Shown: positions 1-11,876 of the stretch, piece after piece
How the letters are laid out: each line of letters begins with the position of its first letter
Position numbering within the stretch: position 1 is the stretch's first letter
From: Arachidicoccus sp. BS20
GTDB lineage: Bacteria; Bacteroidota; Bacteroidia; Chitinophagales; Chitinophagaceae
Length of the DNA stretch: 64,000 bases
Direction of reading: 5' to 3'
Assembly: GCF_001659705.1 (NCBI RefSeq)
Contig: NZ_CP015971.1
Location: 2,855,029-2,919,028, forward strand
The notes under the pieces: model-generated
Database searches by the model: none
What the model was told of the DNA's origin: nothing
The model's input: the letters and a program-made list of their open reading frames with translations, nothing else
Translations under genes and position numbers: made by a program

Positions 1-504
1 ATCGTCTTGTTTGCAGCAATATTTTTGCTTTGCACACAGGCATTTTCGCAAAGCGATGCCATCGGCAAGTTTTTCAACCAGTATGTAAATGACGATAATT
101 TCACGGTCGTTTCCATCAGCCCGAAAATGTTTAAGATGTTATCGAAAGTCAACTGGGACGATGTAAGTCCCGATGTAAAACAAACGGTAAGCCAAATCAC
201 AAGTTTGCGTTTACTTGAAACGGAAAAAAATGCGCAACAAATATATAGAGATGCTGCAAGAAAACTGAACCTTGCTTCTTACGAAGAACTGATGACCGTG
301 CGGGATGGCGGCGACAATGTGAAATTTCTTGTGAAGGAAAACAACAATATCATTTCCGAATTGCTGATGCTCGTTGGCAGCGATGACGATTTTGTATTGA
401 TGTCGATTACCGGAAATATTGATTTAGACAAGATGGCAAAGCTTGGACAAACGCTGAATATTCAGGATATGGACAAGCTGAAGAATGTAAGAAAGAAAAA
501 ATAA
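1..504 (+). CDS. DUF4252 domain protein (5' end outside window)
   Basis: The reading frame is already open at base 1, and the first in-frame candidate start inside the window is a poor TTG at 7. The true start therefore probably lies upstream and the gene is partial. The visible N-terminus is the end of a signal peptide (hydrophobic, then TQAFSQS). The mature part has the DUF4252 pattern: a short phrase ending in FTVVSISPKMFKML, a middle LRLLETEKN segment, and a C-terminal VLMSITGNIDLDKMAKL strand-helix. DUF4252 proteins are Bacteroidota envelope proteins of unknown function, often found next to ECF sigma/anti-sigma genes. It is the first of three tandem paralogues. Family assignment is fairly safe; the role is unknown. 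Confidence 0.75.
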   Translation: MVLFAAIFLLCTQAFSQSDAIGKFFNQYVNDDNFTVVSISPKMFKMLSKVNWDDVSPDVKQTVSQITSLRLLETEKNAQQIYRDAARKLNLASYEELMTVRDGGDNVKFLVKENNNIISELLMLVGSDDDFVLMSITGNIDLDKMAKLGQTLNIQDMDKLKNVRKKK

Positions 505-528
505 ATTATCAACTTAAAATTATCGTTT

Positions 529-1038
529 ATGAAAAAGAATTTGCTTTTAATCGCACTGTTTATCAGTGTTTCAGCGAATGTATTTGCACAAAAATCTTTA
601 GACAGATTTGTTCATAAATACAGAAGCACGGCTAATGCCGACTATGTGCATGTCGGCAGTTTTTTGATGGCGTTGGCACATCCGTTTATTCCGGCAGATG
701 ATGACGGTACGCGATTGCTGAAAAAAATTCATTCTGTTGAAGTCCTTGATTTTAATATTAATTCACAGCAACCAAATGTGCATCACGATATGAAACTGTT
801 GCAATCAGATTTGATTAAAGATGGTTACGATGAATTGATGTTCGTAAAATCCGAAGGCGACAGAGTACATATTCTCGGCAAAATTCAAGGCGATAAAATT
901 GTAAAAGATTGCGTGCTGTTGGTCGATAGCGATAATGAAATTTCTGTTGTTCATGTGACAGGAAAAATCAACTTAGATGAAATAGGAAATCTTTCTGGCA
1001 AATTTGGAAATGCAAAATTTAGTGTTGCGAAGAATTAA
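529..1038 (+). CDS. DUF4252 domain protein, second tandem copy
   Basis: This 169-residue protein has a clear signal peptide (MKKNLLLIALFISVSANVFAQ), then the same fold pattern as its upstream neighbour: DRFVHKYR near the N-terminus, VEVLDFNI in the middle, and a C-terminal ISVVHVTGKINLDEIGNL that mirrors SITGNIDLDKMAKL of copy one. The gap to the preceding gene is 24 bases, so co-transcription is likely. The sequences have diverged strongly, which argues for old duplications. An exported protein of unknown function is the most that can be said. Confidence 0.75.
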   Translation: MKKNLLLIALFISVSANVFAQKSLDRFVHKYRSTANADYVHVGSFLMALAHPFIPADDDGTRLLKKIHSVEVLDFNINSQQPNVHHDMKLLQSDLIKDGYDELMFVKSEGDRVHILGKIQGDKIVKDCVLLVDSDNEISVVHVTGKINLDEIGNLSGKFGNAKFSVAKN

Positions 1039-1075
1039 GTATTTTACTCGAATATTCTTTTTTAAAATAATTTTT

Positions 1076-1576
1076 ATGAACCGCTATTTTATTTTGATTG
1101 CGATATTTATAATGCTTTCCACAGCTTCATTTGCACAGAAAACAATTAATACATTTATCGAAAAATACGGACAAATTAAAAATGTCGAGTTGTATGATGC
1201 ACTCAAAATGATGTCAAGTCAAGTGAATGACACACTGCCTCCCGAAAAAAAGGCAATAATAAAAAAGTTGAAGACCTTTCAAGTAATGAATATTCAATTT
1301 GATGAAAGTAATAAAAACACAATAACTGATGAGATAGTAAAATTGAAGGCTAATTTGCTGAAAGATAAATATGAGGAATTGGCATCATTCAAATCAAACG
1401 GCAGCAAATCCATTGCTATGGTCTTTATACCTGAGAATAAAGCAGAGAAAGATTATGTGCAAATTGTAGAACAAGACGATACTGCATATATCATACATAT
1501 AGCAGGAGAAATGACAGACAATGAATTCTCAAAACTCATTGCAAGCATAAGCATCAGTGAAAACGCGGATAATTAA
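1076..1576 (+). CDS. DUF4252-like protein, third tandem copy
   Basis: The frame is open from 1004, but that start overlaps the previous gene and would put a basic, non-signal leader in front. The ATG at 1076 gives a typical signal peptide (MNRYFILIAIFIMLSTASFAQ) and a 166-residue protein. It shares the series layout: INTFIEKYG, then FQVMNIQFD, then a C-terminal AYIIHIAGEMTDNEFSKL corresponding to the V/I-x-I-T-G-x-I/M strand of the other copies. Lysine-rich composition and weak identity make it the most diverged of the three. Function unknown. Confidence 0.65.
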   Translation: MNRYFILIAIFIMLSTASFAQKTINTFIEKYGQIKNVELYDALKMMSSQVNDTLPPEKKAIIKKLKTFQVMNIQFDESNKNTITDEIVKLKANLLKDKYEELASFKSNGSKSIAMVFIPENKAEKDYVQIVEQDDTAYIIHIAGEMTDNEFSKLIASISISENADN

Positions 1577-1760
1577 AATGCTCTTTACATATAAAAAGGC
1601 AACATCCATCCGGATAAGATTGAAATACTCTCCATACAAATGGGAAAACAAAAAGCAGGGCACAGCAAAAGATTAAAACAAAAATACTTTTGGCATTATT
1701 TGTTATAAATAAGTAATTTTAATACGTTAATTACATTGCTTATTTTAAATATCTGCCAAA

Positions 1761-2408
1761 ATGGAAGAGAACCAAACATCCGGAACCGCCGGCGCCGGAC
1801 ATAACCAATCCGAAGAAGTCAAAGAATTTCTCAAACAAGGCTTTTTGCCTCTGGTCAGAAAAATCATTTTCCGCCCTACAGAACTTCAGTCTGAATTTTC
1901 CGAGAACGACAATTCCGTGAAGTCCATCGTTATGATTATTATTTGTGGCGTTTTGTACGCCATATTACCTTACATTTTTGTTGGAAGGGTACGACAGTAT
2001 TTAGGTTTCAAATACTTTCTACAGTTAGGATTGCTTACCATCATTATTCTGTTACTGATAAGTATTTTTACCTGGCTGCTGAAACTTGCCAAAGGTAAAT
2101 CCATGAGCTTCAAAGTAGAATTACTTTCAGGCGGGCTTTGTGCGATACCTTTAATTGTGTTATTGGTGGTAAGCTGTATATTAAGCTTGTTCGGCACCGA
2201 TATTTTTTCCGCCGGTATTTCGGCATTGTATAATGGAAGCTGGCTATTTTCATTGATTGGGTTGTATTGCCTGTTGCTGATGATTAATATTTTTTACCAG
2301 TCATTATGCAGCGGCGGTTACAAACCCAATGCAGCCTGGTATTTAGCACCTGTAGGCATTTTACTTGCTTTTTACATAGCATTTAAAATTGCTTATTCGC
2401 TGTTTTAG
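1761..2408 (+). CDS. Yip1-like integral membrane protein
   Basis: The protein has 215 residues. About 55 hydrophilic N-terminal residues contain an FLPLVRKIIFRPTE stretch like that seen at the start of Yip1-domain proteins. Five hydrophobic segments follow, at roughly residues 57-75, 85-106, 120-145, 155-178 and 190-213. No catalytic motif is visible. It follows the DUF4252 genes on the same strand after 184 bases, so it may or may not share their transcript. Bacteroidota genomes carry many small Yip1-like proteins without known roles. The family label rests on topology and the N-terminal motif only. Confidence 0.5.
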   Translation: MEENQTSGTAGAGHNQSEEVKEFLKQGFLPLVRKIIFRPTELQSEFSENDNSVKSIVMIIICGVLYAILPYIFVGRVRQYLGFKYFLQLGLLTIIILLLISIFTWLLKLAKGKSMSFKVELLSGGLCAIPLIVLLVVSCILSLFGTDIFSAGISALYNGSWLFSLIGLYCLLLMINIFYQSLCSGGYKPNAAWYLAPVGILLAFYIAFKIAYSLF

Positions 2409-2485
2409 TTTTCCATAATACGAATAATATTCGGGTAATAAACGATTTATCCGAATATTATTTTCTTAAACAACGCTTTCTTGCT

Positions 2486-2590
2486 CTTCGGTATTTGCAA
2501 TGCCGAAGCCTTATCGAAGGATTTGTAATCCGTATTTATTTTGTGCATTGCAAATGCACAGATACCGGTTCGGGATTGCAAATCCCGAAC
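2486..2590. repeat. Cluster of four REP-like hairpins with 3-base loops
   Basis: Four short palindromes follow one another between two convergent genes. 2486-2508 has a 10-bp stem (one G-T pair) with loop TGC. 2519-2531 has a 5-bp stem with loop TGT. 2542-2560 has a perfect 8-bp stem with loop GCA. 2568-2590 has a perfect 10-bp stem with loop GCA. In each, the stem ends in ATT on the 5' side and begins AAT on the 3' side, so they look like members of one family rather than chance hairpins. They could end transcription from both sides. They resemble the REP/BIME elements linked elsewhere to Y1 transposases, but no such gene is in the window. Confidence 0.6.
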
Positions 2591-2604
2591 AGCCGAAAGT
2601 GTAA

Positions 2605-5055
2605 TCATTCTTCCACATAAACCCTTTTCACTCTTTGCCCAACGGATGTAAAAATTTCATAAGCAATTGTTCCGCTTTGCTTGGCAAGTTTTTGAACAGG
2701 AAGATTTTCGCCAAACACTTCTACATCGTCGCCTTCTTTCACATTTGGAATATCCGTTATGTCCACCATTGTCATATCCATCGCCACATTGCCGATAACT
2801 TTAGCAGGCTGATTATTGATTAATACGAAACCCGCACCATTGCTGAATCTTCGGTTGTAACCATCTGCATAACCGATACGAATTGTTGCGGTTGTTGTAG
2901 GTTTATTAATTTTCCCTTTTTGGTTATAACCGACCGAATCACCGGGTTGCTCATGCTTAATTTGCGCAATGGTTGTCTTCAATGAAGCAACGACTTTTAA
3001 GTCCATTTTTTCGGGCGTATAATTCACGCCATACAAACCAATTCCCAAACGAACCATATCAAATTGTATTTCAGGATGACGGATGATTGCTGCGGAATTT
3101 GAGATATGACGGATGAATTTGTATTGCAAAGCATTTTCAATTTGAGCGCAACAGCGAATAAAAATATCGGTTTGCTTTTTTGTAAAATCGTCTTCAGCCG
3201 CGTCTTCGCTTCCTACCAAATGACTGAAAACTGACTTAATGACCAATGACTTATTAGCTTTCAACCCAGCAATTAAATCATCCATCTGACTTTCTTCAAA
3301 ACCCAAACGGTGCATGCCTGTATCAATCTTTAAATGAACGGGAAACTGCGCCACGCCTTGCTTTTGGAGAAATACCGCAAACTCGTTCAGTATTTTGAAC
3401 GAATAAATTTCGGGTTCTAAATTGTGTTGAACAATCGTTTCAAAACCATATTCATCGGTGTTCATAACCATTATCGGAATGTTGATTCCCGCGTTGCGCA
3501 ATTCAACGCCTTCATCGGCATAAGCTACCGTGAGATAATCGATTTTGTGGTACTGCAAAATGCTCGCAATTTCAATACTCCCGCTGCCGTAAGCAAATGC
3601 TTTGACCATCGCCATTACTTTGGTCGTCGGTTTGAGATGCTTGCGATATTCTTTTAAGTTATGAACGATATTGGATAAATTAATTTCCAATCTTGTCTGA
3701 TGGACTTTTTGAATCAACAGATTCAACAACTCTTCGAAATGAAAGCAGCGTGCACCTTTCAGCAGAATGGCTTCGTTCTTAAAATGATTTGGCTGAAAAT
3801 GATTAATGAAATCATTACTTGTTGAATATGTTTCAACAGCGGCAATTTTATTTTTCAATTCAGTTTGATATTGTTGCCAGTTTTTGCCAATGATAATTAA
3901 GCGGTTAATTTTTTTATTCACTAAAATATTTATCGCCGATTGATAAATTCTTTCATCATCATTGTGAAAGTCAGATAGAATCAGTGTTTTAGACAACAAC
4001 TGTTGATTGAGCAAATCTAAACCGACACTCAATGAATCGATATCCAAACTGTAACTGTCGTTGATAATAGTACAATTATTTATCGCGGGCAATACTTGCA
4101 AACGCATATCTATCACGGGTAATTGCAACATTTTTTGTTGGATAATTTTTTCATCAATATTCAAATAAATTGCTGCAAGCCAGCAAACACAAGCGTTTTG
4201 AAGGGAAGCATCATCGATAAAAGGAATGGTAATTGAAATTTCCTTTGCCTGATAATCAGCAACAACCGTTGTTTGCCGCTGTTCTTTTTTTATGTCAATA
4301 ATTTTTAAAGTTGCCTGTTGGTTTTTTCCGTAAGACAATATTTGCGCGGAAGTTTTTTTCTTTAGTGTTGAAATAATTTGTTCATCATCTGCATTGGCAA
4401 AAACAATTTTTGAATGTTGGAATAGCTTTATTTTTTCCTCCAGTTTTTGTTGCTTACTTGTAAAGCCTTTTTCGTGCGCATCGCCGAGATTGGTAAAGAT
4501 TCCTATTTCCGGCTGAATGATTTTTTCAAGATTTTCCATCTTATTCACTTCCGAAATGCCTGCTTCAAAAATGCCGAGATTATCTTCTTCGCCCATTTCC
4601 CAAACGCTCAACGGAACACCGATTTGCGAGTTGTAACTGCGCGGACTGCGAATGATTTTATAATCATCATTCAATAAAAAATTCAACCATTCTTTCACAA
4701 TCGTTTTGCCGTTGCTGCCCGTAATACCGATAACGGGATAATGAAATTGCAACCTATGAAACGCCGCCAATTTTTGCAAAGAAGCAAGCGTATTTTTCAC
4801 GAATAAAAAATTCGCATCCTTATATTTTCCGGTATCAATATTTTCCTGCAACACAAAATTTCTGATTCCCTGCCGATAGGCTTCTTCGACGAAATCCGCG
4901 CCGTTCCTGTGTTCCGTCTTTATCGCAAAGAACAATGACGAAGCCGCAAAAGTAATCCTGCGGCTGTCCGTAATTAAGTGTTCTATCTTAATTTCTTTAT
5001 CGGCGAAAAGACTTTCCGCTTCGATTATTTCGCTTATTGATTGGATTGGATACAT
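2605..5055 (-). CDS. murF-alr: Bifunctional UDP-MurNAc-tripeptide:D-Ala-D-Ala ligase / alanine racemase
   Basis: Two peptidoglycan enzymes are fused in one 816-residue chain, an arrangement usual in Bacteroidota. Residues ~1-450 are the Mur ligase part, with the ATP-binding loop GITGSNGKT (Lys117), central EAGISE and C-terminal domain; it adds D-Ala-D-Ala to UDP-MurNAc-tripeptide. Residues ~460-816 are alanine racemase, with the PLP lysine in VKAFAYGSG (Lys485), the LGIGLYGV and RIGYADGYNR motifs, and the C-terminal AMDMTMVDIT strand; it makes D-alanine. One chain thus makes the D-alanine precursor and uses the dipeptide product. The Mur part is diverged, as in other fused forms. It is cytoplasmic and probably essential. 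The start ATG at 5055 gives a full-length N-domain. Confidence 0.95.
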   Translation of the reverse strand: MYPIQSISEIIEAESLFADKEIKIEHLITDSRRITFAASSLFFAIKTEHRNGADFVEEAYRQGIRNFVLQENIDTGKYKDANFLFVKNTLASLQKLAAFHRLQFHYPVIGITGSNGKTIVKEWLNFLLNDDYKIIRSPRSYNSQIGVPLSVWEMGEEDNLGIFEAGISEVNKMENLEKIIQPEIGIFTNLGDAHEKGFTSKQQKLEEKIKLFQHSKIVFANADDEQIISTLKKKTSAQILSYGKNQQATLKIIDIKKEQRQTTVVADYQAKEISITIPFIDDASLQNACVCWLAAIYLNIDEKIIQQKMLQLPVIDMRLQVLPAINNCTIINDSYSLDIDSLSVGLDLLNQQLLSKTLILSDFHNDDERIYQSAINILVNKKINRLIIIGKNWQQYQTELKNKIAAVETYSTSNDFINHFQPNHFKNEAILLKGARCFHFEELLNLLIQKVHQTRLEINLSNIVHNLKEYRKHLKPTTKVMAMVKAFAYGSGSIEIASILQYHKIDYLTVAYADEGVELRNAGINIPIMVMNTDEYGFETIVQHNLEPEIYSFKILNEFAVFLQKQGVAQFPVHLKIDTGMHRLGFEESQMDDLIAGLKANKSLVIKSVFSHLVGSEDAAEDDFTKKQTDIFIRCCAQIENALQYKFIRHISNSAAIIRHPEIQFDMVRLGIGLYGVNYTPEKMDLKVVASLKTTIAQIKHEQPGDSVGYNQKGKINKPTTTATIRIGYADGYNRRFSNGAGFVLINNQPAKVIGNVAMDMTMVDITDIPNVKEGDDVEVFGENLPVQKLAKQSGTIAYEIFTSVGQRVKRVYVEE

Positions 5056-5065
5056 ATTATTTTTT

Positions 5066-5105
5066 TACCACAAAGAGCTCAAAGTTTTTCACAAAGATTA
5101 CAAAG
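5066..5105. repeat. CACAAAG repeat, left copy of inverted pair
   Basis: A roughly 40-base stretch built from CACAAAG-like units (accacaaag, ctcaaag, cacaaag, tacaaag). Its reverse complement recurs at 5547-5588 with only a few differences. The stop codon of the GxxExxY gene (5098-5100) lies inside it. A smaller relative flanks a hairpin after htpG near 19.13-19.21 kb. Confidence 0.75.
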
Positions 5106-5478
5106 TGCCGTTGATTACTCTTTTGATTCCGTCTTTTAATTTTGCAACATTAAAGTTCATCAATAATCCTAACTTATAATTTCCCAATTTTAAATAAGTC
5201 AGTATTTGCGCAAGATGAACATCGGTTAAGGCTTCGACACTTTTTAACTCAACAACTAATTTATTTTCTATAAGCAAATCTATTCTGTAACCGCAATCTA
5301 ATTTTACTTCCTCAAATATCAATGGCATCGGTTTTTCTTTTTCAACCCATAGTCCCGACTTTGCAATTTTATAATAGAAACATTCTTTATAAGCACTTTC
5401 CAAAAGCCCCGCACCAAGTGCATTGTGTACTTCAATGCCGATACCGATTATTTTATTTGAAAGTTCGTTTTCTGTCAT
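5098..5478 (-). CDS. GxxExxY family protein (PD-(D/E)XK nuclease-like)
   Basis: The start chosen is the ATG at 5478 (MTENELSNKI), giving 126 residues. The longer frame to 5577 would translate the repeat DNA and gives an implausible aromatic leader. The naming motif is present as G24-LL-E27-SA-Y30, preceded by IGIGIEVHNALGAG. Further on, YRIDLLIENKLVVELKS fits the PD-(D/E)XK fold (Asp, then Glu-x-Lys). The family is widespread, often multi-copy, and of unproven function. The gene sits between inverted CACAAAG repeats, and its own stop codon is part of one repeat, which suggests it moves or is copied as a cassette. It separates two genes that otherwise read in the same direction. Confidence 0.85.
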   Translation of the reverse strand: MTENELSNKIIGIGIEVHNALGAGLLESAYKECFYYKIAKSGLWVEKEKPMPLIFEEVKLDCGYRIDLLIENKLVVELKSVEALTDVHLAQILTYLKLGNYKLGLLMNFNVAKLKDGIKRVINGTL

Positions 5479-5493
5479 GTGTTTTGTTTTAGT

Positions 5494-5588
5494 AACCACA
5501 AAGTACAGAAAGAAAATACACACAAAGAAATCAAAGTATAATTTCTCTTTGTGTTCTTCGTGAAAAACTTTGAGCACTTTGTGGTTAA
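5494..5588. repeat. CACAAAG repeat pair forming a long hairpin upstream of the GxxExxY gene
   Basis: Two CACAAAG-rich arms face each other: 5494-5536, in the same orientation as the copy at 5066, and 5547-5588, its inverse. Their outer ends pair perfectly over 11 bases (AACCACAAAGT with ACTTTGTGGTT). The structure occupies the space between the GxxExxY start and the stop codon of the macroglobulin gene (5592-5594). It could serve as that gene's terminator, as well as marking the edge of the cassette. Confidence 0.7.
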
Positions 5589-5591
5589 ATC

Positions 5592-8500
5592 TTACTTCTC
5601 ATTTACCCTTATTATAAACCCTTTGCTGTGGCTTGAAAACTCAGGCGCATACATACATTCAATAGTTGCAACGCCCGAAGAAAACCTTCCCGAATGCGTG
5701 ATGTGCACAGGGTAATCGAACACATACGTTCCTTTTCGCAGCATGTCGAAAAAGAAATCGGTGGAAGCATCTTTTGTCGATTCATAATAACCTAAACCGT
5801 CCTGCCATTTAAAAGAGCTCAATACATTATCAGGTTCCATGGAAGAAGCACGCATATCTTTTAAGTGAACAAACTCCATGTCGCGGTCGGTTTTTATTTC
5901 AATGCGGCAAACCAGCTTATCGCCGATGTTTACGGCATCTCCGTCATTCACGGCAAATAATTTTTTGCCTTCATCGGTATTCTTTTCGATGAATAATTTT
6001 TTATGAATAGATAAGTTTGTTGCCGCTGTCGTAATCTTATCCATATCCTCAAAGTATTGCCAATACACGCTTCCGTAAGACGGGGATGTAATATTTTTAT
6101 CAGGCGATGAAACTTTCACGGTAATATTTCCCATATCATTTTTTACATCACTGCCTTTAATGACCTCTTTAAAATAACCTGTTCCCGTTTCAGTTTTGTC
6201 AGGCTGAATTGTTTTATTGCCTAATTGAATGGCAACATTTCTCTTATCAATATTCAAATTTTTATTTGCGTTCAGTAAAGCGTAACATGCATCAGCTGTA
6301 GCTTTCGTGGTTTTCCAACTGTTGGTTTGCTTATTGATGATGAGCCATTGTTGCATATCTGCAACGGCATCTTTCAATTCATTATTATTTTCTTTTGTTG
6401 CAATTTCATTCAGTGCATCAATCATCAAAGACTGCTGTTCTATCGGCGCCTGGTACCAGAAATATCCCGCACGATTATCTTTCCAATACATGCCTTTGGC
6501 GCTGTCTTCCACCGCATTTTCCAAAACGGATTTCACGGGTTCGTTTATTGCAAATATTTTATCGCCGTGCCTGTAAGTCGTCAAGGCAATCATGGATTTG
6601 AAATAATTGGATTGATTCGTCCAGTATTTTTTCTCTTGCTGATAAAAATAATTTTCCGCTTTGGATAAATTATTTCCGTTATCGAAATAACTTTTTGCCA
6701 ATAAGTATTGCATTTGTATTGATGATAAATTATCTTTCGATAAATCAATTTTATTTTTAACTAAATCGCTGTAATCCTTATCAATAGCGGATCTCAGATA
6801 TGTCAATGCTTTGTCGGAAATGTTGGACAATTGCGACAGGTAATTTTTCGGAAGACTGTTCAGCTGCATCAGCTTACCGATTCCCGTTATAATATATTGC
6901 GTGATGTAGCGATTTTCATATCCTCCTTTGAACCACGCAAAACCGCCGCTTGACAATTGTAATTCTTTTAATTTGTTTAATAAAGAGGTTAATTGTCCAT
7001 TCATTTTTTCTGCGTCGAAAAGATTTGCCACATTTCTTTTTTGCGTTGCTTCGCTTTCTGCAGCGGCAACCCAAGGCGTTTCGTTCAACAACAACGTTTT
7101 TAATTCCTGATTCTTTTCCAAGTTAGATTGCAATGCCGTCGTATCTTTTAACCATTGATTGAATGTACTCTGTATCGCGGGATTGCTCTTTACAATGTAC
7201 ATGCCGAGCGCATTTGCATAAAACTTGTTGAAAGTTTGTTCCGCACATTCATACGGATATTGAATGAGATAAGGCAACGATTGAACGGCATACCAAACAG
7301 GATTTGAAGTATATTCAACCGTTACGCTATTGTTCTGCAAAGTATTGCTCTCATTGTTTTTCAATTTATCAAAACTGAAATTTTTTGTTCCATCGCCTTT
7401 CATGAACAAAGGCAAAGACTCCGTTACCAACATTCTGTTGGACAATACAGCGACTTCATGCTGTTCGCCGTCGGAATAATTTCCTGCGCTCGCTTTGATG
7501 ATGATGGACAACGGTTCGGTATAATCTTCCGGAATATGTATGGGGAATAAAACGGAAGCCGATTGATTGGCGGCTACGCTGAAAGCCGCATTACTGTTGA
7601 CATTCCAGGAAGTAATTGTTTCATTATTCATCGGATTGATTAATTCAATCGTTGCATTGCCCGACAAAGTTTTATCGCTGAGGTTGCTGATTTTAGCCGA
7701 TAAATAAATGCTGTCGCCCGCGCGCAAAAAGCGCGGAACATTCGGCTGCACCATCAAAGTTTTTTGCGAAAGAATATTCTTCTCACTGTAACCGAAACTC
7801 AGGTTTTTATCATACGCCAGATTCATCCAACGCCAGGAAGTAACGGCATCGGGCATCGTAAATTCTATATTGTAATTGCCATCCTTATCGGCATGCAATT
7901 GCGGGTAGAAGAATGCCGTTTCGTTGAAGTTGGTGCGAGGTTGAACGTTTGCAGTTTGTTGAGCGCCGTTTTTTGTAATAATTATCACAACGCCATTTGC
8001 TGCTTGTGAACCATAGAGTGCTGTTGCCTGGTCGCCTTTTAAAACGGTTGTACTTGTAATATCATCAGGGGAAATATTGTTTATATCATTTACCACAACT
8101 CCGTCTACAACATAAATTGGATTGTTGTTTGTCACAGAATTCGTACCACGAATTTGAATGTTTTGGGTCGCTCCTGTAAGAGCCTGTTTTCTTTGCACAC
8201 CATATCCAACTACAACTACATCATTAAGGCTTTCATTACCGTTTATAGAAATTCCTGCCGCCTTTCCATTGAGCAAACTTTGAATAGGTGCGTCTTGCAC
8301 ATTTAATCTGTTATAAATATAAGGCTTTTCCGATTCAGCAATATACCGCCTTAGATTAGCATGAGAAATCAAATTGCCCCCGTAAACATTTCCGAATATC
8401 AATTCATCATAAACTTTATTTATATAACGATTATCTCTAAAGGAATAATTTATTTTTCCATAATTACTCCTAAAAGTATTTCCTCCCGACCAATTATTCC

Positions 8501-11500
8501 GCATATAATTATTCACTCCAAAATACGGCAAATTCCAATTCTGCTTATACAATGCATCTAAAGAACCATCATACATAGCACTCAGCAATTCCGCGTTTGC
8601 ATTTGAACTGTCGTTATTTTTTACATTGATAATAAATTTTTCTTTTGCGCCCGGTTCCGTTTTATCGCGGAATGTTGCATAATTAATATTCAAACTGTTA
8701 TTCATGGTAACAGGATATATTCCAGTTATATCAGAGTAGAATCGATTGTTCTTTACAAAAGCAAACCCGTAAGCCGCGCCGTATTTATCGCTCTCGCTTG
8801 TTGTATAAGTGATTAATTTTTGTGCAGCATCTATATTAAAATTTGAATAAGTCGTTGTCGGATTTCCTTTGAAATCATTCTTCACGAAAGATTGAATTAC
8901 GTACACATCTTTCGCGCCTGTACCGATTGTTATAGAATCGGTTTTACCTGTTTCAACATAAGGCGTTTTGTTATTTCCGAAAAGATATTCATTCTGCGCC
9001 ATTGTATAATCAACGACACGTATATATTTCACATCTTTCACTTCATTGCCTTCCTTATCCTTTGCTGTTGCTTCTACATAATACCAACCGTTTTGTAAAT
9101 GATTGTTTTGAATATCAAAACCGTTTTGCAAAGAATCGTTCATTGTGTGATTATAAATAACATCGCTCTTTTGCCATGAAGTTTGGTCGGTTTCATTATC
9201 GTATTCATCGTAAGGGAAATCTTTCAGATACGTTTTCTTATCCATTACAAATTGATCCGGGCGGCTCCAAAACCTTTTCCTGATAAGCCTTTGCGGCGAT
9301 TGCAGCGGAGAAATTTTTACGGTAACATTTGCAGGAATTTCTTCTCCTTCGAGGTTTTGTGTGGATACATATATCTTTTTCAGCGTATCGATATTCAGCA
9401 ATTCAGCATTCCCGATATTGATGACCATATTTTTATATCCTACGGAAATATTCTTCTGCGCTTCTCTCGTTTCGCCGTTATTGTCCGTTACTTCAACGGA
9501 GATATTATAATTAAATATCGGTTCCGTTTTCTTATCAACACTTGAATCGGGCGAGGCTTTAAAACGAATCGTAAACTTGCCGTTCTCGTCCGTTGTTACG
9601 GTATCGTTGAATATTTCTTTCGAAGAAGAATAAGGATATATTCTGCCGTACAACCACGGATAAGGAAAACGCGCCGTGCGTTCCACATTTACTTTTACCT
9701 GTGCGCCGTCAACATTATTGCCCGCATACGCTTTCGCGAAACCCGTAACGGTAATGCTGTCGTTGAGTTTGTATTGAGATTTTACAGTATCGAAATCGGC
9801 ATAAAAAGTCGGGCGCTTATATTCTTCCACACGAAAATTTGTTCTTCCGTTTACATCATCTGCATCAATGGAAAAGTTGCCTGTCAATACATTTTGAGGA
9901 ATATTGAAAGTGCCTGCAAAAGAGGAATAATCATTTACAAACCGGACAGCCGAATCAACGATTTTATTATTGACATCTTTCAAATAAATATGCAGCGAAT
10001 CTTTTGTTTGCCAGAGCTTATCGTTGTGCGTGGTTTTATCTTTAGTTAATGCTATTCCCTTATAATAAATTTTTTGTCCCGGACGATAAATTGCCCTGTC
10101 TGTATAAAAATAAATTTGCGCTTTGTCTTCTTCATATTCGGCAGGGCTTTCGTCATCATCATCGTCATTATTCCTTGAATAATTATATGAATAATTTGCG
10201 CTGAAATCGAGCGTGTCGTTATTTTTTAGAATATATCCGTCATTATATCTTTTGTCATCGTTATTCGGTTCAGGTTTCTTAAAATAACCCTCGCCGTTAG
10301 TGGTAACCGTTTTATATATTCTATATTTTTTATTTTTCTCTATTGTAAAATTCACTTTTGCATTATCAATCGGCTTACCTGTTTCTCTGTTCAGCACGAA
10401 ATAATCATTGCCGTTGGAAATATAAGACAATGCAGAAACATCGAAATTGACGGAAGATAATTTACTTTTCGTACTGAAGTTTTCGCTGTCGCTTGCCAGC
10501 AATATATAACTGCCAGCAGGCAACGCATCAATCTTCAATTCAGCTGAATGCCTTTGATAATCATCGTTTGAAGGTAATTGTTGTTGCGACTTTGCAACTA
10601 TATTTTTATAACGAATTAATGTTGCCCAATAAGCAGAATCTCCGAGATTAAGATTAGTATTTCTGCTGATTTTTAAAACACGCAGATAAACTTTCGACAC
10701 ATTTTTATAATTGAATAAAGTACGCATCGGCAAGTTCGGAGAATTGATACTTTCAATTTGGATGTTCAGCGATTTTTGCGTAATCGAATTTTTCAGTTGC
10801 AATAAATTAATCAATCCTTCACTTGTATCTTTTGTATCAATATTTTGACTGATAATTTCCATTGCTTTTGCATAATCGTATCTGTGTGTTGTGTCTCCGT
10901 AAGCATTGTAACCCGAAGCGTTGTTCGAATAATATTGCGCCTGCAAATACGCAGCCTGTTTAGCTTCCGGAAGATTCGGATAAATTGAAAGAATATTTTT
11001 CAATACAGTTAAGTACAAATTATCTTTGTTCTCATTAATCAGATTATTATAACACCAATCAATTCTTTCTTCATCTGCATCCACAAACGCGGCTTTATTT
11101 TCATCGTTGATATGGAATTGCAGAATGTCCTGAAACAATTGCACAGTCTGGTATTGCGCCGATAAAGTATCTTTTGTCGCAAACGGATAATGAATAAATG
11201 TTTGCGCATCACTCAACGCTTCTGTTTGATTCAGTTGAAATTCTTCAATAGGTTTTGTATTCGTTGAAGGATTTGTTTTGTAATAATCCAATGCAAAATG
11301 CGCCACCAAATCGTACAACGTCGGGCGAAGCTTTGTTACATTTCCTTTTATGACGATTGCACTGTAATCCTTATTCGGCGTGGTTTTCAGTTTATCGTTA
11401 TTCAATGCATTTTCAAACAATTGATGAATTTTTACTGCAAAATCTTCTGCACTCCAAGTCGCAATATCCGTTTTGATGTAATTAACGGTTTCTTTTCTGT

Positions 11501-11876
11501 TGAGTATTTGCCAACGGTTTTGATTGAGATAATTAATTAGCAATTGTGCTTCCATCGTTTGCAGCAGGCTTTTTTCAACCGAATTATTTGACTGAGTAAT
11601 TTGGTTTTCAACTACTGCAATGTTTGCATTAATGTCGTTGTCCTTTATCGTTTGTTCTATGTTTAACCGGTAAATGATTGCTTTGATTTTTTCATCGGCA
11701 ATATTCAAACGAGCAGCGTTGTTATAAATTTTATTCACTTCGTCCAAAGCGGTTTTAGGCTGGCTCTGTTTTGAAAGTAAGCTATCCACAATTTTCCATT
11801 CTTTCTGAAAGCGGCTCTGTGACTGGACTTGTACCGTGCAAATAATAAAAGCAACTACTGAGATAATATTTTTCAT
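5592..11876 (-). CDS. Alpha-2-macroglobulin family protein with inserted SusC-type plug domain
   Basis: A 2094-residue exported protein (signal peptide ending VQSQS near residue 20). Helical and beta segments fill the first ~550 residues. After an Asp-rich linker (~572-580) comes the MG2 motif YFYTDRAIYRPGQKIYYKG (~590). Residues ~1218-1304 are a TonB-receptor plug module (DVVVVGYG, QIRGTNS, YVVDGVVV, VLKGDQATALYGSQAANGV). The macroglobulin core domain follows at ~1318 (TMPDAVTSW), then the thioester region with CAEQ at Cys1544 and the alpha-helical toroid. Bacterial macroglobulins trap proteases or act in envelope defence. The thioester motif is intact, so trapping activity is plausible. The plug lies where the bait region would be expected. 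There is no beta-barrel, so it is not a transporter. Confidence 0.9.
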   Translation of the reverse strand: MKNIISVVAFIICTVQVQSQSRFQKEWKIVDSLLSKQSQPKTALDEVNKIYNNAARLNIADEKIKAIIYRLNIEQTIKDNDINANIAVVENQITQSNNSVEKSLLQTMEAQLLINYLNQNRWQILNRKETVNYIKTDIATWSAEDFAVKIHQLFENALNNDKLKTTPNKDYSAIVIKGNVTKLRPTLYDLVAHFALDYYKTNPSTNTKPIEEFQLNQTEALSDAQTFIHYPFATKDTLSAQYQTVQLFQDILQFHINDENKAAFVDADEERIDWCYNNLINENKDNLYLTVLKNILSIYPNLPEAKQAAYLQAQYYSNNASGYNAYGDTTHRYDYAKAMEIISQNIDTKDTSEGLINLLQLKNSITQKSLNIQIESINSPNLPMRTLFNYKNVSKVYLRVLKISRNTNLNLGDSAYWATLIRYKNIVAKSQQQLPSNDDYQRHSAELKIDALPAGSYILLASDSENFSTKSKLSSVNFDVSALSYISNGNDYFVLNRETGKPIDNAKVNFTIEKNKKYRIYKTVTTNGEGYFKKPEPNNDDKRYNDGYILKNNDTLDFSANYSYNYSRNNDDDDDESPAEYEEDKAQIYFYTDRAIYRPGQKIYYKGIALTKDKTTHNDKLWQTKDSLHIYLKDVNNKIVDSAVRFVNDYSSFAGTFNIPQNVLTGNFSIDADDVNGRTNFRVEEYKRPTFYADFDTVKSQYKLNDSITVTGFAKAYAGNNVDGAQVKVNVERTARFPYPWLYGRIYPYSSSKEIFNDTVTTDENGKFTIRFKASPDSSVDKKTEPIFNYNISVEVTDNNGETREAQKNISVGYKNMVINIGNAELLNIDTLKKIYVSTQNLEGEEIPANVTVKISPLQSPQRLIRKRFWSRPDQFVMDKKTYLKDFPYDEYDNETDQTSWQKSDVIYNHTMNDSLQNGFDIQNNHLQNGWYYVEATAKDKEGNEVKDVKYIRVVDYTMAQNEYLFGNNKTPYVETGKTDSITIGTGAKDVYVIQSFVKNDFKGNPTTTYSNFNIDAAQKLITYTTSESDKYGAAYGFAFVKNNRFYSDITGIYPVTMNNSLNINYATFRDKTEPGAKEKFIINVKNNDSSNANAELLSAMYDGSLDALYKQNWNLPYFGVNNYMRNNWSGGNTFRSNYGKINYSFRDNRYINKVYDELIFGNVYGGNLISHANLRRYIAESEKPYIYNRLNVQDAPIQSLLNGKAAGISINGNESLNDVVVVGYGVQRKQALTGATQNIQIRGTNSVTNNNPIYVVDGVVVNDINNISPDDITSTTVLKGDQATALYGSQAANGVVIIITKNGAQQTANVQPRTNFNETAFFYPQLHADKDGNYNIEFTMPDAVTSWRWMNLAYDKNLSFGYSEKNILSQKTLMVQPNVPRFLRAGDSIYLSAKISNLSDKTLSGNATIELINPMNNETITSWNVNSNAAFSVAANQSASVLFPIHIPEDYTEPLSIIIKASAGNYSDGEQHEVAVLSNRMLVTESLPLFMKGDGTKNFSFDKLKNNESNTLQNNSVTVEYTSNPVWYAVQSLPYLIQYPYECAEQTFNKFYANALGMYIVKSNPAIQSTFNQWLKDTTALQSNLEKNQELKTLLLNETPWVAAAESEATQKRNVANLFDAEKMNGQLTSLLNKLKELQLSSGGFAWFKGGYENRYITQYIITGIGKLMQLNSLPKNYLSQLSNISDKALTYLRSAIDKDYSDLVKNKIDLSKDNLSSIQMQYLLAKSYFDNGNNLSKAENYFYQQEKKYWTNQSNYFKSMIALTTYRHGDKIFAINEPVKSVLENAVEDSAKGMYWKDNRAGYFWYQAPIEQQSLMIDALNEIATKENNNELKDAVADMQQWLIINKQTNSWKTTKATADACYALLNANKNLNIDKRNVAIQLGNKTIQPDKTETGTGYFKEVIKGSDVKNDMGNITVKVSSPDKNITSPSYGSVYWQYFEDMDKITTAATNLSIHKKLFIEKNTDEGKKLFAVNDGDAVNIGDKLVCRIEIKTDRDMEFVHLKDMRASSMEPDNVLSSFKWQDGLGYYESTKDASTDFFFDMLRKGTYVFDYPVHITHSGRFSSGVATIECMYAPEFSSHSKGFIIRVNEK

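Follow-up and report, generated by a model that had tools for sequence, protein, structure and literature searches.

A SusC-like Ton box and rearranged mini-plug in the bait slot of an alpha-2-macroglobulin from Arachidicoccus sp. BS20

The window analyzed here, a 64,000-nucleotide stretch of the genome of Arachidicoccus sp. BS20, contains a gene for an alpha-2-macroglobulin (A2M) whose bait slot is filled with sequence resembling the Ton box and plug of SusC. Judged from its sequence, the query protein is a thioester-bearing bacterial A2M, for which protease capture is predicted, and it is probably periplasmic. The plug-like stretch is one example of a bait slot whose content turns over rapidly. 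The best explanation, held at about even confidence, is that this A2M would present an exposed bait built from SusC Ton-box and plug sequence, that cutting of the bait would lead to capture of the protease, and that the bait may mimic TBDTs.

The gene and the features discussed below lie at the following positions of the window:

5592-11876, minus strand: alpha-2-macroglobulin gene, 2094 aa, no internal stop
9846-10115, minus strand: MG2 domain, residues 588-677 (Pfam)
8154-8504, minus strand: predicted disordered part of the bait slot, residues 1125-1241 (AlphaFold2 pLDDT under 50)
7965-8297, minus strand: whole rearranged mini-plug, residues 1194-1304
8244-8276, minus strand: QGKVAG-like segment LLNGKAAGISI, residues 1201-1211
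8199-8228, minus strand: putative Ton box LNDVVVVGYG, residues 1217-1226
7989-8240, minus strand: Pfam Plug (PF07715) match, residues 1213-1296, 39.0 bits, E 1.3e-9, cut-off 23.9
7962-8117, minus strand: predicted folded C-terminal plug half, residues about 1254-1305
7659-7919, minus strand: A2M domain PF00207, residues 1320-1406, directly downstream of the bait slot (Pfam)
7236-7247, minus strand: thioester motif CAEQ, residues 1544-1547
5640-6014, minus strand: bMG10 domain, residues 1955-2079 (Pfam)

Pfam places MG2, Plug, A2M (PF00207) and bMG10 in that order, with the A2M, MG2 and bMG10 matches above their curated cut-offs, and PF00207 was found at one place in the whole genome, that of the query. 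The CAEQ thioester is present, as the initial annotation had claimed. The N-terminus resembles a signal peptide and by eye lacks a lipobox cysteine. The claimed absence of a barrel agrees with Pfam, which lists no barrel family at E<=1 across the whole 2094-residue protein; with A2M domains instead of a barrel C-terminal to the plug, the query is no transporter. The placement of the plug at the bait position, ahead of the macroglobulin core, also holds, with the mini-plug ending at residue 1304, 15 residues ahead of PF00207. The slot itself was located by this position and by structure. A Plug and an A2M domain in one protein are already visible to any domain scan, and similar fusions are presumably present among database entries. 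Because Pfam gives no match at E<=1 to the classical bait region domain A2M_BRD (PF07703) in the query, the claim stands as that of an A2M with an unusual bait. A literature search of open-licence papers returned none on a Plug-A2M fusion, a rearranged mini-plug or a plug-derived bait mosaic. The initial annotation had named a gene-calling error that joins two genes as one of two findings that would overturn it, and such an artefact, in which assembly or gene calling fuses an A2M to a SusC fragment, is next to impossible. The protein is encoded in a single open frame in a one-contig genome, the layout of a plug followed by A2M recurs in independent genomes (G012, G145 and G393), and the G+C content of the mini-plug is 0.39 vs. 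0.37 for the gene. These values are uninformative on lateral acquisition.

The plug domain claimed at residues 1218-1304 (7965-8225, minus strand) largely coincides with the Pfam match, and the motifs quoted for it can be read at residues 1219-1226 (DVVVVGYG), 1239-1247 (RGTNS, within NIQIRGTNS), 1255-1262 (YVVDGVVV) and 1286-1296 (ALYGSQAANGV). The SusC signature TIGR04057 scores 42.0 for the query, just below its cut-off of 46.2, and phmmer searches with the plug stretch lead to SusC structures (5t3r, 4.9e-12). Against a SusC plug profile seeded by 11 SusC plugs of the same genome, the bait region of the query scores 88.1 bits in all, and with the same profile no single domain in 1340 shuffled baits scores higher than 7.7 bits. 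At the level of sequence, a chance likeness to the SusC plug is excluded. The putative Ton box resembles the functional Ton box of SusC Bt1763, DEVVVTG, which according to the accessible part of the source is required for function (PMC7782687). The same part reports that the plug of Bt1763 was missing from an earlier crystal structure through proteolytic cleavage (PMC7782687). As far as these excerpts go, the two observations suggest that TonB and, at least in vitro, proteases can reach such sequence.

The stretch had been read as a plain SusC plug, but its order is not that of SusC, and it is better described as a shortened, rearranged mini-plug. The profile matches it in three pieces, with profile positions 35-53 (1.9 bits) followed by the Ton box at positions 1-24 (20.6 bits) and then by positions 58-130 (72.2 bits). 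The QGKVAG-like segment therefore precedes the Ton box in the query, whereas it lies downstream of it in SusC, and about 30 profile positions (~25-57) are absent from their usual place past the Ton box. Taken alone, the QGKVAG-like segment is a weak match, with 3.6 bits in a second scoring. The rearranged order is shared with a 413-aa protein of the same genome (L102; 46% identity over 114 columns) and with an A2M from a different genus (L283, also numbered L290; 46% over 103 columns). In a genus search, the 413-aa protein was the best non-A2M match to the query stretch at 89.7 bits, and the other matches listed score at most 75.1 bits. A mini-plug search of 98 genomes of the family, which scored at most 47 candidates per genome, found at least 6 places covering the mini-plug from position 9 or earlier. 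Among the matches listed, the A2Ms of G000, G145 and G393 and the 413-aa protein score 115-184 bits, and weaker ones occur in G003 (1036 aa, 83.8 bits) and G396 (832 aa, 83.3 bits). The A2Ms that share the rearranged order have cores only 38-47% identical. With those of L290 and L291, the query mini-plug shares 42-43% identity, and the cores share 38%; a mini-plug identity above that of the core does not prove selection, and two SusC plugs may match as well. A recent copy from a SusC gene of the same genome was considered and is unsupported at the DNA level, where the best other match in the genome covers 60 bases at 80%. Overall, this distribution suggests that plug pieces circulate as a module among unrelated Bacteroidota envelope proteins.

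The genome possesses 76 Plug-family places, 75 of them above the cut-off, with the query A2M included, and some other barrel-less proteins also carry plug pieces. A 688-aa BlaR1-like M56 peptidase, encoded in one frame (L101, 1293-3356, plus strand; about 3154292-3156355 of G000:C1), contains a tandem pair of plug half-domains along with a QGKV...EVTVIGYA stretch and a TonB C-terminal domain. At L102, the 413-aa protein (1628-2866, minus strand) contains the rearranged mini-plug and TonB_C, and its neighbor on the opposite strand (3423-4499, plus strand) is a vWA protein in which CarboxypepD_reg is present and an IRG motif comes after a Ton box. For the 413-aa protein, Pfam gives only Plug and TonB_C. 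The description "anti-sigma-like" reflects our own reading of its N-terminus, and the accessible part of a paper on anti-sigma factors mentions neither plug nor macroglobulin (PMC13088901). If the plug is indeed a circulating module, the reading of "TonB-dependent receptor plug domain" annotations on barrel-less proteins would change.

Structure prediction divides the mini-plug into two parts. In an AlphaFold2 model of residues 1000-2094 (66 rows, mean pLDDT 76.8, pTM 0.66), the half with the Ton box is predicted to be disordered, since the low-confidence region (model residues 126-242) contains both the QGKVAG-like segment and the Ton box, while the other half, about residues 1254-1301, is predicted to fold like a TBDT plug. 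A model of residues 1190-1315 alone repeats this split (mean pLDDT 63.2, pTM 0.43), with pLDDT 78-88 over about residues 1250-1299. With the latter model, SusC plugs lead the Foldseek results (best E 1.1e-3, none <=0.001, probability 1.00), and several SusC plugs match the folded half at ~2 Angstrom over 53-71 columns, others less well. For the larger model, VIA-align returns A2M and complement chains at Z about 19-22, with rmsd 14-16 for the long bacterial rows, and the predicted structure thus has the A2M fold. Specifically, 7o7q_A aligns over the thioester part (Z 22.1, rmsd 3.3, 280 aligned), ECAM 5a42 gives Z 21.3 (rmsd 14.8, 512 aligned) and 4u48 gives Z 21.2 (rmsd 15.6, 605 aligned). 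In the 5a42 row, residue 1318 of the protein (model residue 319) lies opposite ECAM residue 965. The disordered bait of ECAM is placed at about Arg923-Leu942 in the accessible part of its description (PMC4498604), so on this evidence the plug stands about where the bait of ECAM stands. The second finding named as a refutation in the initial annotation, a plug buried in the core, is addressed by these models in part, through the predicted disorder of the Ton-box half.

The survey of Bacteroidota macroglobulins that the initial annotation had proposed indicates that the plug recurs in this slot. Eighty named loci were taken as the best 80 of 573 relatives, not as a random sample, and a phylum survey covered 296 genomes, 132 of them with PF00207, from which 67 loci were processed (27 new and 40 hand-chosen among the strong rows). 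In a separate set of 67 segments, one of them that of the query, all 67 have a Pfam match to A2M, 28 to the classical bait domain, 9 to Plug, 9 to CarboxypepD_reg and 8 to CarbopepD_reg_2. A full plug, defined as a score above 40 bits, is present in seven of the 67 loci from the phylum survey (L270, L271, L273, L277, L281, L282 and L283). Relatives were assigned by us to classes A, C and D from the motif past the slot, with class A, that of the query, being the ETAFF type. Class A has a full plug in 12 of 147 rows and a weaker signal in 27, and CxEQ in 130 of the 144 rows long enough to judge. In class D, two of five rows have a full plug, and the 51 rows beyond these classes have none, with a weaker signal in one. 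With a shorter slot window and stricter rows, class A numbers 141, of which 12 have a plug, 34 a weaker signal and 95 none above 4 bits; for this set, 72 of 223 rows were dropped (no ETAFF-type motif, slot cut off, or short), followed by 10 of 151 as duplicates. The plug was thus rejected as a universal feature of class A.

The form of the inserted sequence also varies. Two class A proteins, L270 and L271, have the SusC N-terminal cassette of NTE, Ton box and plug (confirmed by Pfam for L271), some relatives have half cassettes of NTE and Ton box, and other class A baits contain scrambled short pieces, as in L162, where the order is IRG, Ton box, YG and QGKVAG. Class C is a second class of A2M of ~1950 aa, in which the NTE-Ton box-plug cassette, with a full plug, is found at the same slot in six of the eight rows seen (L036, L038, L042, L050, L281 and L282), with an NTE match of the SusC type in seven and CxEQ in all eight. 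Three class A A2Ms of the same genus as the query (L017/L109, L020/L110 and L023/L111 of G002-G004) are without CxEQ in the stretch examined, where the query keeps CAEQ, and their baits contain weak plug remnants only.

Based on comparisons of close relatives, the slot is hypervariable, and gain or loss of the plug appears to be frequent. On a FastTree of 141 class A cores, at least 10 changes are needed for the 12 full plugs and 38 for any plug signal; these counts are rough, with long branches that include L283 and no separation of gain from loss. In 19 of 19 pairs, hand-picked from the tree, identity is lower in the bait than in the core. For example, L184 and L188 have cores 92% identical and baits 36% identical, and the plug is present in L184 and absent from L188. 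Of the 18 pairs in which it was measured, two have a stretch ahead of the slot that is less similar still than the bait (L277/L271, 23% and 47%; query A2M/L112, 38% and 39%). The plug of L184, from Winogradskyella, is 53% identical to a SusC-sized 1040-aa protein, its best match in its own genome, and 47% identical to the plug of the L179 A2M, though the cores of the two A2Ms are 90% identical.

Such turnover would also be expected if the plug were tolerated filler, where the slot takes almost any open, soluble sequence and recombination supplies DNA from multicopy SusC plugs that then erodes. The 76 Plug-family places, the plug difference between L184 and L188, the plug pieces in unrelated proteins of the same genome and the whole and half SusC cassettes of some relatives are consistent with this explanation, which we nevertheless consider unlikely. 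The rearranged order recurs in A2Ms with divergent cores and in another protein, and the plug consensus is kept even though no recent DNA copy is apparent. The filling of the slot is also plug-specific, which favors the bait reading. The SusC plug profile scores above 4 bits in 30 of 83 class A baits, vs. 6 of 909 other A2M windows, one of which reaches 23 bits, and 1 of 996 shuffles; a second profile, from 22 plugs, gives 31 of 83. A profile of the ~490 residues past the SusC plug matches 1 of 83 baits and 14 of 996 shuffles, and this absence of barrel enrichment argues against filler, although barrel strands may be purged. Likewise, plug pieces occur in frame in 30 of 83 baits and in 0 of 83 in each of the five other frames. 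This control is soft, as stops are common in those frames (5.6-13.6 on average per 145 codons) and such frames would be purged too. The NTE profile matches 2 of 83 baits, but also 52 of the 909 windows elsewhere in these proteins and 1 of the 996 shuffles, and so says little. The 145 residues taken as the slot leave no room for an NTE ahead of the plug; when the slot was widened to 260 residues, the NTE was found in 9 of 147 class A rows. By regular expression, 17 of 83 baits contain two or more kinds of motif, compared with 0 of 909 windows and 2 of 4150 shuffles, and 10 of the 17 are by our count not in SusC order. These expressions were written after the sequences had been seen, so the profile test carries the weight. 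The profile test omits the query and counts one gene twice (L112 and L116), while the motif and frame tests drop L112 and add the query, for 83 baits each.

The pieces that are kept differ in frequency. The 34 baits with a weak signal keep the Ton box in 21 cases, QGKVAG in 17, IRG in 4, VDG in 2 and YG..NGV in 0, where 275 random 20-aa pieces of SusC plugs placed in shuffled baits cover the same regions 21, 30, 30, 41 and 30 times. Comparison of the Ton box and QGKVAG with the other three gives a Fisher p of 3e-10, with unequal bins and related rows. Part of this contrast is a length effect, since the short IRG motif is undercounted by profile score and by regular expression turns up roughly as often as the Ton box (23 vs. 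17 of 83). Even so, the sequences hint that the N-terminal, TonB-facing part of the plug is favored, which is the main hint of a role for TonB.

A docking role, in which an exposed Ton box attaches to the TonB C-terminal domain or plug pieces attach to TBDT barrels, gains some support from this preference. As a consequence, the trap would be held beside TonB-TBDT complexes, or TonB would pull the bait. The match of LNDVVVVGYG to a functional SusC Ton box, its position in predicted disorder and the TonB_C domains of two other barrel-less holders (L101 and L102) point in the same direction. However, the profile detects a Ton box in just 28 of 141 class A baits (21 of the 34 weak and 7 of the 12 plug rows), IRG is by regular expression about as frequent, and docking leaves the folded plug half and the QGKVAG segment unexplained. 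On balance, docking seems fairly improbable.

The preferred reading remains that of a bait. In the accessible part of the ECAM study, it was proposed from the cleaved structure that the thioester domain is set free once the bait has been cut and then captures the protease (PMC4498604). In the query, sequence taken from the SusC Ton box and plug would fill the slot, the exposed mini-plug would act as the bait or part of it, and a protease cutting there would free the thioester domain and be captured as for ECAM. That the plug stretch serves as at least part of the bait is reasonably likely, and of the three roles offered in the initial annotation (decoy, docking and bait carrier) the last is best supported, by position and hypervariability. 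If the bait is read as linear sequence, the order of the plug need not be kept. Plug pieces may have been reused because a bait like the periplasm-facing part of a TBDT would draw proteases that would attack TBDTs; such mimicry as the reason for keeping the plug is possible but doubtful. Against bait use and mimicry, the plug is not needed by the family, given the 95 class A rows without a signal. Preferential keeping of the Ton box and QGKVAG is not predicted by linear bait use, and a folded half-plug should be a poorer protease substrate than a disordered bait. Moreover, plug pieces occur in proteins of the same genome that are no protease traps, so bait use is not the whole explanation.

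The bait region determines which proteases an A2M can catch, and to our knowledge it is largely unsettled which proteases bacterial A2Ms target in nature. That many relatives draw their baits from a single source, the SusC Ton box and plug, is a sign of some specific interaction in the Bacteroidota envelope, and the question of targets becomes testable with a few peptides. A broader proposal, which we hold only tentatively, is that the Bacteroidota A2M bait slot is a replaceable cassette site that shows a SusC Ton box and mini-plug and couples the trap to the TonB-TBDT machinery, either because TonB engages or pulls the bait or through TBDT mimicry. If this is true, the A2M would be gated by envelope energy or would be a trap for proteases that disarm nutrient import.

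The gene neighborhood was considered as a clue and indicated no function. At the 80 named loci, one neighbor cluster occurs in 32 (succinyl-CoA ligase as example) and one in 29 (DAO oxidoreductase as example), and neither is among the query neighbors tested. Directly downstream of the A2M gene lies a GxxExxY/PDDEXK_3 protein (5098-5577, minus strand) with no apparent link to it. Elsewhere in the window, a Mur ligase and an alanine racemase are fused in one 816-aa frame (2605-5055, minus strand; Pfam), and three adjacent small secreted-looking proteins (7-1576, plus strand), mutually similar by eye, are perhaps tandem paralogues.

Among known systems, the type I A2Ms ECAM/YfhM of E. coli and Sa-A2M of Salmonella have MG domains, PF00207, CxEQ and bMG10 in common with the query. 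The query differs from both in having no A2M_BRD match and a SusC mini-plug in the slot. YfhM is called a lipoprotein in the PDB, and the query by eye has no lipobox. Type I a2m genes are described beside pbpC in the accessible part of the literature (PMC5764988), whereas the neighbors of the query that were run against Pfam are not pbpC. The SusC/RagA transporters Bt1763 and BT2264 share Ton box and plug sequence with the query, which unlike them has no barrel, no SusC-type NTE match ahead of the plug and a changed order. The L101 and L102 proteins are similar to the query in possessing a Ton box or plug pieces without a barrel, but they are no protease traps and two of the three end in TonB_C. 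Finally, the type II A2M MagD of P. aeruginosa is, like the query, a bacterial A2M with a bait. MagD is described in the same accessible text as lacking the thioester (PMC5764988), whereas the query possesses CAEQ.
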